42,977 bases of DNA, from contig JAJZGY010000015.1 in the NCBI GenBank assembly GCA_021804785.1, positions 1 to 42,977 of the forward strand, written 5' to 3'. The notes under the pieces are model-generated. The model was not told the DNA's origin and did no database searches. It was given only the letters and a program-made list of their open reading frames with translations. Shown here piece by piece: positions 25,779 through 32,106 of this stretch; the first letter of the stretch is position 1, and each line of letters starts with the position of its first letter. A program made the position numbers and the translations under genes. The DNA is from Pseudomonadota bacterium. GTDB taxonomy: Bacteria; Pseudomonadota; Alphaproteobacteria; Micropepsales; Micropepsaceae.

Positions 25779-26468
25779 GTGATCGTGGCTGACTGGCGCC
25801 GTCGTCGGCGAAGGTGGCGCATTGTTGCCGCAACAGTTGCGGTGTTGGCGCTGGCCTATGTTTCCGGTTTTGTGGTTTTTGCGCAGACGCTGCCACGCCA
25901 TGCGCATGTCACCGGCCATCCCGATGCGATTGTGGTGCTGACCGGCGGAGGTTCGCGTCTGGATACCGCCGAGGACCTGTTGGACAGAGGTGTAGGACAG
26001 CGCCTGCTGATTACGGGCGTCAATCGGACCACGACGCGTGGTGAAGTAAAGGTTCTGGTCCATGGTGGACCACGTTTTCATTGCTGTGTCGATCTTGGTC
26101 GCGATGCGACAAGCACTTTTGGCAACGCATTGGAAGCCGCGGCATGGAGCCGTCATCATGGCTTTCGTGAATTGCTCGTGGTCACGGCAAATTATCACAT
26201 GCCACGCAGCCTCAACGAGTTTCACGCAGCGATGCCCCAGATCCGGCTCGATCCCTATCCCGTCGATCCCGTCGGCGTTGACCTGAGGAATTGGTGGCTG
26301 CATCCACGCACCATTCGCGTGTTGCAGGCCGAATACGCCAAATATCTCGCCAGCCTCGTCCTCACGCGCATCATGAGCCAGCGGATCCGTCTGCTCCTGG
26401 ACCGCAATTTCATCCAGATCGATAGCACCGCTCCGCCGACTTGGCCGGTAGCGCGACGCCAAAGCTAA
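25779..26468 (+). CDS. YdcF/DUF218 family membrane protein
   Basis: 229 residues from the GTG at 25779; a GTG at 25785 is spaced slightly better from AGGA and may be the true start. The N-terminus has an arginine cluster (RRRRRRW) and one membrane helix (~14-35). The DUF218 core follows: HPDAIVVLTGGGSRLDTAEDLL, the STFGNALEAAAW helix and LVVTANYHMPRSL. The family, which includes SanA and ElyC, is tied to envelope integrity and peptidoglycan precursor metabolism; the reaction is unknown. It is the third gene of the ftsE-ftsX-ydcF-plsC cluster. Confidence 0.9.
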   Translation: MIVADWRRRRRRWRIVAATVAVLALAYVSGFVVFAQTLPRHAHVTGHPDAIVVLTGGGSRLDTAEDLLDRGVGQRLLITGVNRTTTRGEVKVLVHGGPRFHCCVDLGRDATSTFGNALEAAAWSRHHGFRELLVVTANYHMPRSLNEFHAAMPQIRLDPYPVDPVGVDLRNWWLHPRTIRVLQAEYAKYLASLVLTRIMSQRIRLLLDRNFIQIDSTAPPTWPVARRQS

Positions 26469-26483
26469 CGGAACCCTCTGATC

Positions 26484-27209
26484 ATGACCACGCTGCGTTC
26501 GACCCTGTTTTTGCTCTGGTTCATTTTCATCTCGCTGATCATCCACCTGGCAGCTTTGCCGGCGTTCTTTCTGCCACGGCGCGCCAGCCTGAGGGCAGGC
26601 AAGATCTGGTGCCGGGCGGTGCTCTTTGGCCTGCGCCATTTTGCCGGCATGCGCGTTGAGGTGCGCGGAGCCCTGCCGGGAAATGGCGCGCTCATCGCCT
26701 CCAAGCACATGAGCATGCTCGACACCATCGCCCTTTATGCGACGCTTGATCAGCCCCACTTTGTCTATCGGCGCAGTCTGGAACGCATTCCCTTCTTCGG
26801 CTGGTATTTACGAAAATCCGGGATGATTGCGATCGATCGCGATGGCGGGGCCACCAGCCTGCGCCAGATGGCCGCTGCGGTGCGCGCCCTCACCGGTCGT
26901 GGTCACACGGTCATCATTTTTCCGGAAGGAACGCGCAAGGGCCCCGGCGCACCTGCCGACTACAAGCCAGGTGTGGCCGGGCTTTATGGGCAGGTAAACC
27001 AGCCACTGGTACCGGTTGCGCTCAATACCGGGCTGTTCTGGACAGGACCCATGGGACTGATCAAGCGCAAGGGCACGGTCATTGTCGAATTCCTGGAGCC
27101 CATTGCCCCCGGCATGAAACGACGGCCGTTCATGGAGCTTTTGCAGGAGCGTATCGAGACCGCCACCGCCGCCCTGGTGGCAGAGGGTCGGAAGGAGCTG
27201 GGGCAATGA
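26484..27209 (+). CDS. plsC: 1-acyl-sn-glycerol-3-phosphate acyltransferase
   Basis: 241 residues with an N-terminal hydrophobic segment (~7-30). The acyltransferase motif HxxxxD is HMSMLD (75-80) and the phosphate-binding motif is FPEGTR (146-151). The enzyme acylates lysophosphatidic acid at the inner membrane to give phosphatidic acid, the lipid precursor. The start lies 15 bases after the ydcF stop. The stop precedes a LexA box by only 12 bases, which marks the start of the nrdJ regulatory region. Confidence 0.94.
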   Translation: MTTLRSTLFLLWFIFISLIIHLAALPAFFLPRRASLRAGKIWCRAVLFGLRHFAGMRVEVRGALPGNGALIASKHMSMLDTIALYATLDQPHFVYRRSLERIPFFGWYLRKSGMIAIDRDGGATSLRQMAAAVRALTGRGHTVIIFPEGTRKGPGAPADYKPGVAGLYGQVNQPLVPVALNTGLFWTGPMGLIKRKGTVIVEFLEPIAPGMKRRPFMELLQERIETATAALVAEGRKELGQ

Positions 27210-27221
27210 CGCTTGTCTTTG

Positions 27222-27236
27222 GAACAAAAAGCGAAC
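27222..27236 (+). promoter_or_regulatory. LexA box (GAAC-N7-GAAC) upstream of nrdJ
   Basis: GAAC at 27222-27225 and GAAC at 27233-27236 are separated by exactly seven bases; on the other strand this reads GTTC-N7-GTTC, the LexA operator known from Alphaproteobacteria. It lies in the 97-base gap between plsC and nrdJ, 70 bases before the nrdJ start, a sensible operator position. The match to the core is perfect. Confidence 0.7.
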
Positions 27237-27306
27237 ATCATCAAAGAGGAACGCGCGATAAATTTGTCTTTGGTCTAAGAGCGTATGCCGTATCTGTGCC
27301 GGGCCG

Positions 27307-30300
27307 ATGATGAGCGATCTGACAAACCGCATCTGGGACATGAAGTACCGCCTCAAGGCCGCTGATGGCACGCCCGTCGACGCGACCCCAGCGCAGAGCC
27401 TGGCGCGTGTGGCTTGGGCAGCCGCCCAGGCCGAGCGGCCCGCTCGGCGCGCGCACTGGGCGGGCCGTTTTGCCGAGGCCCTCGCCAACCATCGCTTCCT
27501 GCCCGCCGGCCGCATCCTCGCTGGTGCCGGAACCGGGCGCCAGGTGACGTTGTTCAACTGCTTCGTGATGGGACGCATCGACGACGACATGGGCGCGATC
27601 TTCAGCCATCTGCGCGAGGCCGCGCTAACCATGCAGCAAGGTGGCGGGATCGGCTATGATTTTTCGACGCTAAGACCCAAGGGTGCGCCCGTGCGCGGCG
27701 TCGGGGCCGATGCCTCTGGTCCGGTGTCGTTCATGGAGGTGTGGGACGCGATGTGCCGCACCATCATGAGTGCCGGGTCACGACGCGGAGCGATGATGGC
27801 GACCCTCGCCTGCAATCACCCGGACATCGAGGATTTCATCGCGGCCAAGCGTGAGCCAGGCCGGCTTGCGATGTTCAATCTTTCGGTTTTGGTCAGCGAT
27901 GCCTTTCTTGAGGCGGTCAAAGCTGATCGGGAGTGGCCTCTCGAATTCGCCGGACGCGTCTACAAAACCCTGCGCGCACGCGAGCTTTGGGACCGCATCA
28001 TGCGCGCCACCTATGACTATGCCGAGCCCGGCGTGATCTTCATCGATCGCATCAATGCGCTGAACAATCTCGCCTATTGCGAGAGCATCCATGCCACCAA
28101 TCCCTGTCTGACGGCCGACAGTTGGATTCATACGAGCGATGGTCCACGCCAAATTGGTGAACTGTCGGGTGTGCCGTTCAAGGCTGTTGCCAACGGTGCG
28201 GTATGGCCCTGCGATGGGCGTGGCTTTTTTTCCCGCGGTACAAAGCCGGTCTATCGCCTGACGACGCGCGAAGGCTATCAGCTGCGCCTTACCGCCGATC
28301 ACCGCCTGCGCAAGGTGACTGCGCGCAATCCCTGGTCCGTCAGCTGGCAGTGGCAGGCGGCGGGATCACTCAGCCCAGGCGATGAAATCCTGCTGCAGGA
28401 CCACCGGAACTGCCCGCAGTGGGGCGACGGGGACGAAGAAGACCATGCCGAAGGCTATCTCATTGGTCTGTTGCATGGCGATGGCGATTGCGCCGCCGAC
28501 TCCTTGGGTCTCAGCGTCTGCGCGCAGCGTCAAAGAATGCCGGCTACAACTTCAATCCCAGCCGTTCCGCAACTGCTGCTGGCCGCGCAAGCCGCCGCGC
28601 GCACGCTTGACGGGGGCATTGGCAGCCACGCGTTGCGCTTCGATGCCCAACGCGGGCGATGGCATCTTGGCATTGCTGGTTTCGAGGAGTTTGCCCGCAA
28701 GCATGATTTGATGCTTCCCACGCGCACCATCTCTGCGGCACTGGAGCGCCGCTCGCAGCGCTTCTATTGCGGATTTCTGCGTGGCCTGTTCGATGCCTCC
28801 GCGCATTTGGAAACTGCTCTGCGGCAAGGCCCGCGCCTCAGTCTTTGGGATGAGACGCCAGAGAAGCTGCGCGCGGTACAGCGCATGCTGCTGCGTCTGG
28901 GAGTGGTGGCGTCGCTGTCATCGCGGCGTGACGGCATCAGGCGGATGCCTGCCGCGTTTGGATACGAGCTTGCACTCACCGGCGCCAATCTGGCGAGATT
29001 TGCTGCCAGCATCGGCCTCAGTGCGCGCGACAGCGCGCTGAAACTGAAGGCCGCGCTGGCACAGCCTGCGGTTTCGCTCTCCGTTGAGCCTTTCACTGCG
29101 ACCGTTGCGCAGCTGGAAGCGCAAGGCGAAGAAGCCGTGTTTGATGCGGCGATACCGGGGCTCAACGCCTTCGATGCCAATGGCTTCTGGGCGCATAATT
29201 GCGGCGAACAACCGCTGCCGGCCTATGGGGCCTGTCTTTTGGGCTCGATCAATCTGGCGCAGCTGGTCAGCAATCCGTTCAGCGATGATGCGCGCCTCGA
29301 TGTAGCGGAGCTGGCGGCGTTGACCCGCACGGCGGTGCGTTTCCTCGACAATGTGATCGATATCTCGCGTTTTCCCTTGCCGGCGCAACAGGCAGAAGCT
29401 GCTGCCAAACGCCGTATTGGCCTTGGCATTACCGGTCTTGCCGATGCGCTGATCTTTTGTCGGCTGACTTATGGCGAGGACGAGAGCCTTACGCAAATCG
29501 CGCACTGGCTTCAGGTCATGCGCGATGCCGCCTATGATGCCTCGGCCGAGCTTGCTGCCGAAAAGGGAGCGTTTGCACTATTTGATCGCGAGGCCATGCT
29601 GAGCCGACCCACTATCGCTGCACTGCCCGAGGCCATCCGCGACAAGATTGCCCGCCGTGGATTGCGCAATGGCCTTCTGACCTCGATCGCACCCACCGGC
29701 ACTATTTCGCTGTTCGCCGGCAACGTCTCCAGTGGTATCGAGCCGGTCTTTGCCTATTCCTATACCCGCAAAGTTCTTTTGGCCGACGGCACTCGCAGCG
29801 AGGAGGTGGTCAGCGATTACGCCTACCGTCTTTTCCGCTCCCGCTTTGGCGAGGATGCTGTTCTTCCGGATTATTTCGTCAATGCGCAAAATCTGGCACC
29901 TGAAGCCCATCTGCAGGTGCAGGCGGTAGCCCAGAGATACATCGACTCTTCCATTTCCAAAACCATCAACGTCCCTGAGAACATCGATTTTGCTGCGTTC
30001 AAGGACATTTATCTGCGCGCCTATGCGCTTGGCTGCAAGGGCTGTACCACCTATCGGCCCAATGCGGTAACCGGCTCGGTGCTGAGTGTCTCGTCACCGC
30101 CGGTCAGCACCGATGTTGCGGGCACACTTTTGCCGTCCGTGCTTGCCACGCGGGAGGACGCCCAGGGCGCGGTTGTCTACATGACAAGACCGCTTGACCG
30201 CCCCGAACTCCTGGCGGGGCAGACCTACAAGATCCGTTGGCAGGATTCGGATCATGCCTTCTACATCACCATCAACGATATCCTTCAGGATCATCGTCGC

Positions 30301-30702
30301 CGCCCGTTCGAGATTTTCATCAATTCGAAGAACATGGAGGCCTATGCCTGGACCTTGGCATTGACGCGGATGATCTCGGCAGTATTTCGCAGGGGTGGCG
30401 ACGTCAGTTTTGTGGTTGATGAGCTGAAGGCGGTGTTTGATCCACGCGGTGGCCAGTGGAGCCAGGGCCGTTATGTGCCCTCGCTGTTGGCTGCAATCGG
30501 CGATGTGATTGAACGCCATCTGGTCGATATCGGTTTTATGGCGGCCCGCCGGCATGCCGACGATGCGGTTGATGCCACCGCCGTGGCCATCGCGGCCGAA
30601 GGCGCACCGGCGCGGTTTTGCCCGCGCTGCTCAAGTCCGGGCTTCATCCGGCTCGAAGGTTGCGACAGCTGCCTGGCCTGCGGATATTCGCGGTGTGGCT
30701 AA
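27307..30702 (+). CDS. nrdJ: class II (B12-dependent) ribonucleotide reductase interrupted by an intein
   Basis: 1131 codons: N-extein 1-266, intein 267-631, C-extein 632-1131, giving a mature enzyme of ~766 residues. It reduces ribonucleotides to deoxyribonucleotides using adenosylcobalamin, so no NrdB partner is needed, and none is nearby. Seen: RFLPAGRIL, Cys85 in LFNCFVM (partner of the redox pair), TLACNHPDIEDFI, the radical-site loop NP-CGEQPL split by the intein, GSINLAQL, GCKGCTTYRPN, and a C-terminal zinc-ribbon-like tail CPRC...CLACGYSRCG. No cobalamin riboswitch is visible upstream; a LexA box is. Two ATGs in a row (27307, 27310) are both possible starts, with no strong ribosome site. 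Confidence 0.95.
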   Translation: MMSDLTNRIWDMKYRLKAADGTPVDATPAQSLARVAWAAAQAERPARRAHWAGRFAEALANHRFLPAGRILAGAGTGRQVTLFNCFVMGRIDDDMGAIFSHLREAALTMQQGGGIGYDFSTLRPKGAPVRGVGADASGPVSFMEVWDAMCRTIMSAGSRRGAMMATLACNHPDIEDFIAAKREPGRLAMFNLSVLVSDAFLEAVKADREWPLEFAGRVYKTLRARELWDRIMRATYDYAEPGVIFIDRINALNNLAYCESIHATNPCLTADSWIHTSDGPRQIGELSGVPFKAVANGAVWPCDGRGFFSRGTKPVYRLTTREGYQLRLTADHRLRKVTARNPWSVSWQWQAAGSLSPGDEILLQDHRNCPQWGDGDEEDHAEGYLIGLLHGDGDCAADSLGLSVCAQRQRMPATTSIPAVPQLLLAAQAAARTLDGGIGSHALRFDAQRGRWHLGIAGFEEFARKHDLMLPTRTISAALERRSQRFYCGFLRGLFDASAHLETALRQGPRLSLWDETPEKLRAVQRMLLRLGVVASLSSRRDGIRRMPAAFGYELALTGANLARFAASIGLSARDSALKLKAALAQPAVSLSVEPFTATVAQLEAQGEEAVFDAAIPGLNAFDANGFWAHNCGEQPLPAYGACLLGSINLAQLVSNPFSDDARLDVAELAALTRTAVRFLDNVIDISRFPLPAQQAEAAAKRRIGLGITGLADALIFCRLTYGEDESLTQIAHWLQVMRDAAYDASAELAAEKGAFALFDREAMLSRPTIAALPEAIRDKIARRGLRNGLLTSIAPTGTISLFAGNVSSGIEPVFAYSYTRKVLLADGTRSEEVVSDYAYRLFRSRFGEDAVLPDYFVNAQNLAPEAHLQVQAVAQRYIDSSISKTINVPENIDFAAFKDIYLRAYALGCKGCTTYRPNAVTGSVLSVSSPPVSTDVAGTLLPSVLATREDAQGAVVYMTRPLDRPELLAGQTYKIRWQDSDHAFYITINDILQDHRRRPFEIFINSKNMEAYAWTLALTRMISAVFRRGGDVSFVVDELKAVFDPRGGQWSQGRYVPSLLAAIGDVIERHLVDIGFMAARRHADDAVDATAVAIAAEGAPARFCPRCSSPGFIRLEGCDSCLACGYSRCG
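28105..29199 (+). mobile_element. intein with degenerate LAGLIDADG endonuclease, inserted in nrdJ
   Basis: 365 residues. It starts at Cys267 (CLTADSWI) right after extein NP and ends at His630-Asn631 (FWAHN), followed by extein Cys632. These are the nucleophiles and branch-cleavage residues needed for class 1 splicing. Block B is TADH (329-332) with the conserved Thr and His. The central domain has two LAGLIDADG-like helices ~106 residues apart: LIGLLHGDG (385-393) with its catalytic Asp392, and LRGLFDASA (491-499), where Ser498 replaces the second catalytic acid. Splicing should work; homing probably does not. The insertion point is the catalytic cysteine, a typical conserved target. Confidence 0.9.
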
Positions 30703-31128
30703 GCGGGCGCAGCGTATTTGCGGATGTGTCGCCGTCGTTCTCGGGCTGAAGCCTGGGGGGGCTGGGGGAGCCGACACTCCCCTCAAGTCCGCACGTGATC
30801 GTGGAGCAGGTGAGCCCGTTTCAATGCGTTGGAGCGGCAAGCAGAAGCGCGGTTGCGTCGCGCGAAACTGCACCGGGCCGATTTCGGGCAGGCACAGGGG
30901 AGGACGATCCGGCATTGCGCGGCTTGACCGAGGCGGAAGATTGTTGGCACTTCACGGCGACCGTCCTATGGTCGGGGCAGGGTGAAGTTGCACCCAAATG
31001 GTGCCCACCGTCCTTGTCGGTCCCTTCAGAAGGGCGACGTGAGCCGGCAAGACTTACACCTTGATGTCGTCCAGCGATGTCGTCCAGCATGCCTGCGTCC
31101 ACGAGCAAAAGACCGGCCAGATCTAGAA
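30703..31128. other. intergenic stretch without a gene
   Basis: About 425 bases. GGGGAG at 30765-30770 pairs with CTCCCC at 30777-30782 around six bases and could be a weak nrdJ terminator, though no T-run follows. A perfect 13-bp tandem duplication lies near the right end. Open frames on both strands lack ribosome sites and protein character. Confidence 0.5.
31063..31088. repeat. 13-bp perfect tandem duplication
   Basis: GATGTCGTCCAGC occurs at 31063-31075 and again at 31076-31088, directly adjoining. It lies 40 bases before the DUF2125 gene start, in the likely promoter or leader region. Confidence 0.9.
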
Positions 31129-32106
31129 ATGCGCTATTCCCATCGGTTTTTCCTTTACGCGCCCGTTGCTGCACTCCTGCTGCTTGGGCTCGCCGCATCG
31201 CTCCATTGGCTTACCGCCTATCAGCGCTTCACCACTGCGCTGGCACGGCTGAACGGCCATGAGGTACTTCCTGGTGTCCGCCTGTCGTATACCGCGGCAG
31301 AAACTGGCGGCTTTCCGTTTCGTCTGGACGCAGTGCTCAAGGATGTGCGTGTTCAGGTGCAAACCAGCCATGGCCCAGTGAGCTGGACGAGCCGGCATTT
31401 TGCGCTGCATAGCCTCGACTATGGGGATATGCACATCCTCATGGAGGCGGCCGGGCTCCAGCGTCTCAGCTGGTATGACCCTCGTGGAACACGCCATCAG
31501 CTTGGTTTTACCCCAGGACTATTGCGGGCGAGCGTGCTCGGGGATCACGGCGTGGTGCGGCGCATCGACATCGAACTTTATGATGCCCGCACGCGTCTGT
31601 TTCGCGTGCTGCATGCCGAATTTCATCTGCGCAAGGATCCCCACCGCAACGCGCTCGATCTTGTGGTTATGGCGGACCGGCTGAGGATTGACACCAAGAG
31701 TGGAGCCACACCCGCCGATCACATCACCAAGCTGCGTCTTGCGGGACGGGTCACACCGGCTAGCAGCTGGCACGGCCTATTGGCGGGGCAGGCGGGCTGG
31801 AGCCAGGCCACAGCCGCCTTCCGGGCGGCGTCCGGTCACCTTGATCTTGCCCATCTCAGTCTGGCGTGGCGCTCGGCCGAGGCGAAGGGCAATGGAGTGC
31901 TTAGCTTGGACGGTGCCGCACGACCTCAAGGTATCCTGGAGCTCTCGGTTGATGGCGAGCCGGTCGCTCACGGCAGCTCCAAGGGGCTGCTTTCCGCAGT
32001 GCTGGCCGCAGCCTCAAGGGCCCATCCAGGAGTTCGCATTGCTTTCAAGGACGGGGTTTCCTATCTCAACACCAGCCCGGTCGGTCTGGTCGCCCCGCTG
32101 TTCTGA
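31129..32106 (+). CDS. DUF2125 family protein
   Basis: 325 residues from the ATG at 31129; the frame is open for a further 147 bases upstream but MRYSHRFFLYAPVAALLLLG makes a natural signal anchor (~7-25). The rest is a predicted beta-rich extracytoplasmic domain with YTAAETGGFPFRLDAVL, the DUF2125 hallmark, and repeated strand patterns reminiscent of AsmA-like envelope proteins. Function is not known. No strong ribosome site is seen. It is followed 88 bases later by a small coiled-coil gene on the same strand. Confidence 0.82.
   Translation: MRYSHRFFLYAPVAALLLLGLAASLHWLTAYQRFTTALARLNGHEVLPGVRLSYTAAETGGFPFRLDAVLKDVRVQVQTSHGPVSWTSRHFALHSLDYGDMHILMEAAGLQRLSWYDPRGTRHQLGFTPGLLRASVLGDHGVVRRIDIELYDARTRLFRVLHAEFHLRKDPHRNALDLVVMADRLRIDTKSGATPADHITKLRLAGRVTPASSWHGLLAGQAGWSQATAAFRAASGHLDLAHLSLAWRSAEAKGNGVLSLDGAARPQGILELSVDGEPVAHGSSKGLLSAVLAAASRAHPGVRIAFKDGVSYLNTSPVGLVAPLF

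Follow-up and report, generated by a model that had tools for sequence, protein, structure and literature searches.

It is established that inteins occupy conserved sites as well as catalytic positions in replication proteins, as described in the available sections of two papers (PMC5874633, PMC2814812). For ribonucleotide reductases, the accessible part of one survey assigned the rir1-b allele to Halobacteria and many bacteria and listed T. kodakarensis and B. subtilis among its hosts; the rir1-b entries in Table 3 of that survey contained no Alphaproteobacteria, unlike the host of the intein analyzed here (PMC4071816). A homing model in which inteins pass through invasion, fixation and decay is outlined in the available part of another paper (PMC3229294).

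The window analyzed in this study is a stretch of 42,977 nucleotides from an alphaproteobacterium of the family Micropepsaceae (contig JAJZGY010000015.1 of assembly GCA_021804785.1, positions 1 to 42,977), and it contains a ribonucleotide reductase gene, nrdJ, interrupted by a predicted intein. The features of the locus are as follows.

27222..27236, + strand: SOS-type (LexA) box GAACN7GAAC, GAACAAAAAGCGAAC; exact match, 85 bp before the nrdJ start
27307..30702, + strand: nrdJ, adenosylcobalamin-dependent ribonucleotide reductase with an in-frame intein; 1131-aa precursor matched by TIGR02504, PF02867 and TSCPD
27307..28104, + strand: N-extein, residues 1-266, ending ...ATNP; gap-free alignment to intein-free NrdJ
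28105..29199, + strand: predicted intein of 365 aa, from Cys1 to His-Asn; profile matches, empty sites, predicted fold near PI-PfuI and PI-SceI
28291..28302, + strand: splicing block B, TADH, residues 329-332; translation, Thr63 and His66 invariant in 39/39
28429..29079, + strand: LAGLIDADG endonuclease domain, intein residues ~109-325, apparently decaying; PF14528 at 46 bits, structural matches, raised nonsynonymous rate
28459..28485, + strand: LAGLIDADG motif 1, LIGLLHGDG, acid kept (Asp126); alignment
28777..28803, + strand: LAGLIDADG motif 2, LRGLFDASA, position-8 acid lost (Ser232); alignment
29194..29199, + strand: terminal His-Asn of the intein, His630-Asn631 of the precursor; translation, invariant in 39/39
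29200..30702, + strand: C-extein, whose first residue is the catalytic and +1 Cys632; alignment to Cys322 of T. maritima NrdJ, PDB 1xje

Profile searches revealed that the 27307-30702 product scored 542.6 bits against the TIGR02504 NrdJ_Z equivalog model (cut-off, 399.95 bits) and 379.3 bits against PF02867, with a TSCPD domain close to the C-terminus of the precursor. As evident from both the equivalog model and the catalytic cysteine loop, the interrupted enzyme is a class II ribonucleotide reductase, NrdJ. The intein was bounded by the junctions ...HATNP|CLTADSW... and ...GFWAHN|CGEQPLPAYG...; residue 267 was translated as Cys from the codon at 28105-28107, and Cys632 of the CGEQPL sequence aligned with Cys322 of Thermotoga maritima NrdJ (1xje), which we take to be the active-site thiyl-radical cysteine. 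A preliminary description, made from the letters alone, had placed the intein exactly between Pro266 and the catalytic Cys632, and all of the positions that it named agreed with the translation.

Upon joining residues 1-266 directly to residues 632-1131, we found no gap at the junction relative to intein-free NrdJ proteins. In an alignment of 28 loci that included the window, seven carried an insert of 363-379 aa at the junction and 21 had zero inserted residues there, so the extra sequence in intein-free homologs that would have spoken against the preliminary description did not occur. One of the 21 empty loci (L029) showed a variant junction, ATNS|CGEK. A further 14 genus loci were also empty at this position, with one masked by N there, and the intein-free genus loci aligned thus numbered 31 (17 plus 14). 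From this position of the intein, we infer on sound grounds that reductase activity would depend on splicing.

The intein contained Cys1, a TxxH block B (TADH), His364-Asn365 and a Cys at +1, and the splicing residues that the preliminary description had called intact (Cys267, TADH and His630-Asn631) were all present. In particular, all 39 full-length inteins compared at the site shared Cys1, Thr63, His66, His364 and Asn365; this set leaves out the partial L049 as well as L066 and L067, which end in VTGQ. The latter two (from G752 and G422, respectively) are distant inteins at NP|C with Gln in place of Asn and no penultimate His. The TIGR01445 intein_Nterm model matched at 29.4 bits (cut-off, 24.5 bits) and Pfam LAGLIDADG_3 (PF14528) at 46 bits (cut-off, 22.5 bits). 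The Pfam Intein_splicing model remained below its gathering score (25.7 versus 35.8 bits), which is a detection threshold and not a property of inteins, although the match extended to the last Asn.

We then compared a predicted model of the intein (mean pLDDT of 75.4, from an alignment of seven sequences) with known structures. The top match was PI-PfuI (1dq3), with a Z-score of 18.0 and a root mean square deviation of 5.5 over 301 residues at 16% sequence identity; the other full inteins 1um2 (Z-score of 17.8) and 1vde (Z-score of 17.6) also matched over nearly the whole length of the model, the mini-intein 5o9j matched at a Z-score of 10.1, and the free LAGLIDADG enzymes I-Tsp061I and I-DmoI matched residues ~109-325. 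The Hint domain that the preliminary description had proposed to look for in residues 267-631 was thus recovered as a predicted Hint/LAGLIDADG fold, together with the passing TIGR01445 match. Judged by sequence and predicted fold, 28105-29199 is an intein, and its Cys1, penultimate His, terminal Asn and +1 Cys point to the standard cis-splicing kind.

Related inteins were surveyed with a profile of seven inteins of this site. At an E-value of 1e-10, they were found in 15 of 385 class-sampled and 20 of 398 phylum-sampled genomes, counts that both contain the genome of the window and share two more genomes. The loci behind these matches had the NP|C junction, except for L049, which was cut off before its N-terminal junction. 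Within the genus of the window, the intein was present in 11 of 69 genomes (G000, G020, G778, G782, G795, G023, G796, G010, G007, G005 and G786); the other 58 showed no intein in this gene, some of them lacking the gene or being too fragmentary to score. A scan of genome contigs with the intein yielded one named locus, from the same genus. The loci L003 and L032 are one contig (JAJZDZ010000020.1) of a metagenome-assembled proteobacterium of this genus, JA6.bin32. Additionally, a further NrdJ-like gene with approximately 46-63% identity to the window enzyme was observed in some genus members (G784:C17, G798:C70 and G011:C153).

Junctions of the same kind were found in more distant proteins. The NCBIfam model PRK08332, which we take to represent a Thermococcales enzyme, aligned through a C-terminal junction identical in place to that of the window intein. 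The NrdE protein of a B. subtilis plasmid has an intein immediately ahead of the CSE cysteine, and inteins placed right before CSE were found in two class Ib NrdE proteins in all. The gene at L121:1264-5142, on a Miltoncostaea oceani plasmid, is annotated as a LAGLIDADG homing endonuclease between nrdI and nrdF, and its translation looks like an NrdE interrupted by an intein ahead of CSE. Because the PRK08332 and B. subtilis NrdE junctions agree with the hosts named in the available part of the rir1-b survey, the window intein is probably this published allele, an assignment drawn from matching junctions and listed hosts. As far as these junctions indicate, the insertion site is one that inteins have long used.

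LAGLIDADG motifs normally each have an acid near the motif end. At this position of motif 2, we found Ser in the window copy (L002), Ala in its nearest relatives L003 and L007, and Asp or Glu in the remaining 36 of the 39 full-length inteins, so that the motif-2 acid was lost in exactly these three; the motif-1 acid was also lost in three (L003, L004 and L065). With Ser232 in motif 2, the window copy did not have the acid in both motifs that marks an active homing endonuclease. Furthermore, L002, L003 and L007 lacked 12-14 endonuclease residues present in the other four of seven inteins aligned.

The rates of change also differed between the regions of the gene. Between L002 and L003, the exteins were 91.7% and the inteins 73.0% identical, and nonsynonymous change rose from 0.040 for the extein to 0.069 for the splicing region and 0.202 for the endonuclease region. 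The ratio of nonsynonymous change in the endonuclease region to that in the splicing region was 2.75-2.94 in the three pairs of the window clade, with wide bootstrap intervals (1.82-5.32, 2.08-4.34 and 1.96-4.30); seven control pairs gave 0.90-1.54. Higher control values, 1.99 and 2.62, came from two additional pairs within a single close group that kept both acids (L043, L046 and L047); all of the pairs (three clade and nine control) were chosen by hand. These results suggest that the endonuclease of the window copy is decaying and has probably lost part of its DNA-cutting ability, a decay that was absent from the preliminary description. Since one of the two acids was kept, the copy may still act as a nuclease to some extent, for instance by nicking. 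In all three clade pairs, nonsynonymous change in the endonuclease region was lower than in each of 300 neutral simulations, which argues against free drift of the domain; such residual constraint would be explained most simply if the domain must remain foldable and non-disruptive.

To place the intein in the history of its host gene, we used a tree of the exteins, which is the reductase's own sequence and not an independent species tree. It comprised 38 genus rows, 10 with the intein and 28 empty, plus five outgroup rows, and it left out L072 (C-extein cut off), L019, L029 and L082. The presence of the intein required eight changes on this tree, compared with a mean of 9.2 for shuffled labels, and 93 of 500 shuffles were as low. 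The intein label was therefore not clearly non-random on the tree, which matches the expectation under frequent gain and loss. Five bearers with both endonuclease acids each adjoined an empty sister, one of these pairings (L069-L076) being weakly supported (96/66). L002, L003 and L007, from three species, formed the sole all-intein clade among the genus loci on the tree (100/100). The intein tree, from which L049 (partial), L066 and L067 (C-terminus VTGQ) were left out, repeated the topology L007,(L002,L003) on a long stem of 0.88 and placed all of the genus inteins on the same side of a branch with support of 100/99. The uniform clade and its decaying endonuclease fit invasion, fixation and then decay in the homing cycle.

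The box at 27222-27236 has the motif also found upstream of lexA in the same genome (GAACTAAAGTAGAAC). LexA motifs of this type are typical of Alphaproteobacteria, and together with the nearest plasmid-borne NrdJ proteins the motif points to this class. The motif occurred three times in the window (0.92 expected) and 72 times genome-wide, compared with 103 for a reversed control. Because there was no genome-wide enrichment, single matches mean little, and the weight rests on conservation upstream of nrdJ. Searching up to 250 bp upstream, we found the box in all 10 scorable genus loci with the intein and in 23 of the 29 scorable genus loci without it; it started 55-105 bp before nrdJ in these 33 of 39 loci, with the box of L014 on the other strand. 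Random 250-bp stretches of the same genus loci, box regions included, gave a match in 81 of 2100. Outside the genus, the box was found in five of 30 scorable intein-bearing loci. Upstream sequence was too short for L007, L019, L074 and, beyond the genus, one locus. Scanning 27000-27320 for promoters returned nothing. On the strength of the conserved box, nrdJ is likely to be under LexA control. The box belongs to the reductase gene whether or not an intein is present. The preliminary description had treated the pairing of operator and intein as a hint of conditional splicing, and the boxes in intein-free loci remove the force of that hint; a literature search on inteins and the SOS response returned no title on such a pairing.

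On contig C98, the genome encoded a second reductase of class II type; its NPCSE loop contained no intein, and no SOS box was present in the 4617 bp examined there. No class I small subunit scored above the cut-off in the genome, where one weak match reached 20.9 of the required 33.6 bits. Given this reductase, which the preliminary description did not mention, the genome probably has another source of dNTPs besides the interrupted gene, and the interrupted enzyme may have a damage-induced accessory role.

We also considered where the element came from. Phage origin was rejected: no relative of the intein appeared in viral contigs, which were scanned with six short peptide patterns, all taken from a single sequence, that distant relatives could escape, and annotated phages gave one weak relative. 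Plasmid carriage was likewise rejected: 518 plasmid records matched in a search with the whole protein, and not one of them covered 80% of it in one place. The 20 plasmid matches listed covered 42-69% of the precursor, of which the exteins alone make up 68%; among the matches listed, the nearest NrdJ proteins were from Azospirillum and Rhodobacterales. On the same question, a search with the intein of a relative gave two distant inteins with identities of 24-29%. Ten proteins of the window were scanned, none from a mobile-element gene, and those in the flanks at 25779-27209 and 30982-32106 were DUF218, acyltransferase and DUF2125 proteins.

Taken as a whole, the sequence data make it very probable that a cis-splicing intein in the catalytic loop spread by homing, became fixed and then underwent decay of its endonuclease, with the SOS box as an independent feature. 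After translation, the intein would excise itself, and ligation of Pro266 with Cys632 would restore the NPCGEQPL loop, as the intact residues suggest. Its spread within the genus would have been driven by the LAGLIDADG homing endonuclease, which presumably recognized the conserved active-site codons. Once the intein was fixed in the lineage of the window, the endonuclease would no longer have been under selection and would have decayed, with splicing presumably under strong selection throughout.

An alternative is that splicing is conditional and that the SOS-induced reductase is held inactive until a stress signal (redox, metal or DNA damage) arrives. Conditional splicing is known for other inteins from the available sections of two papers (PMC5790916, PMC6195587), an insertion at the catalytic cysteine should yield an inactive precursor, and LexA probably controls nrdJ. 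A faint hint in the same direction comes from intein residue 36 (28210-28212, WPCDG), which is Cys only in L002, L003 and L007, whereas Ser, Thr, Val or Ala occupies this position in the remaining 36 of 39; Cys36 could be a redox partner of Cys1, and a disulphide switch is conceivable. However, SOS box and intein occur independently of each other, the nrdJ of most genus genomes (the 58 of 69 noted above, the fragmentary ones included) shows no intein, and the scattered distribution and endonuclease history look parasitic, so we regard conditional splicing as unlikely. It is quite improbable, too, that the decaying selfish element has turned into a post-translational, perhaps redox, switch in which the constraint on the endonuclease and Cys36 tune the splicing of a damage-induced reductase.

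Another possibility, a non-splicing insertion or dead intein that leaves the reductase a pseudogene beside the C98 enzyme, would agree with the presence of that second class II reductase, with the decayed endonuclease and with two of 69 genus genomes having no nrdJ match at an E-value of 1e-60. Nevertheless, the frame is open, the splicing residues are invariant, and the N- and C-exteins gave a pN/pS of 0.097 against L003 (from a set of 13 pairs, some saturated at synonymous sites), which argues that the enzyme is under strong selection; a pseudogene is thus highly improbable. We hold it very unlikely that the intein aids folding or cofactor loading of the reductase before excision, as was proposed for the intein of the Aquifex aeolicus R2 protein, which had more iron and twice the activity when produced from the intein-containing gene, according to the available part of that report (PMC8772380). 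That site is diiron, whereas class II enzymes use adenosylcobalamin, and close relatives of the window enzyme manage without an intein. The reading we prefer remains homing, fixation and decay of a cis-splicing intein.

The comparison with described systems supports the view of an ordinary element, of a known kind and at a known kind of site, in an instructive state of decay. PI-PfuI, the intein-encoded endonuclease of Pyrococcus furiosus, resembles the predicted window intein over its whole length; it is a homing endonuclease, whereas the window intein is without the second LAGLIDADG acid. The ribonucleotide reductase intein of Moorella phage MTATph1 (OR602862.1) has junctions identical to those of the window (ATNP|C ... 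HN|CGE), although it is shorter, and its tblastn alignment covers only residues 1-113, with 33% of them identical. The product name of that phage gene (L050:2416-4767) does not mention the intein at NP|C. The R2 intein of Aquifex aeolicus, in the portion of the report available, also separates catalytic residues of a ribonucleotide reductase, but those are the diiron ligands of a class I small subunit and the window enzyme belongs to class II (PMC8772380). Set against these systems, the genus offers a natural series of the homing cycle at one site, with empty alleles, scattered inteins with intact motifs and one uniform, decaying clade, and it illustrates that an SOS box may lie next to an intein without indicating conditional splicing.
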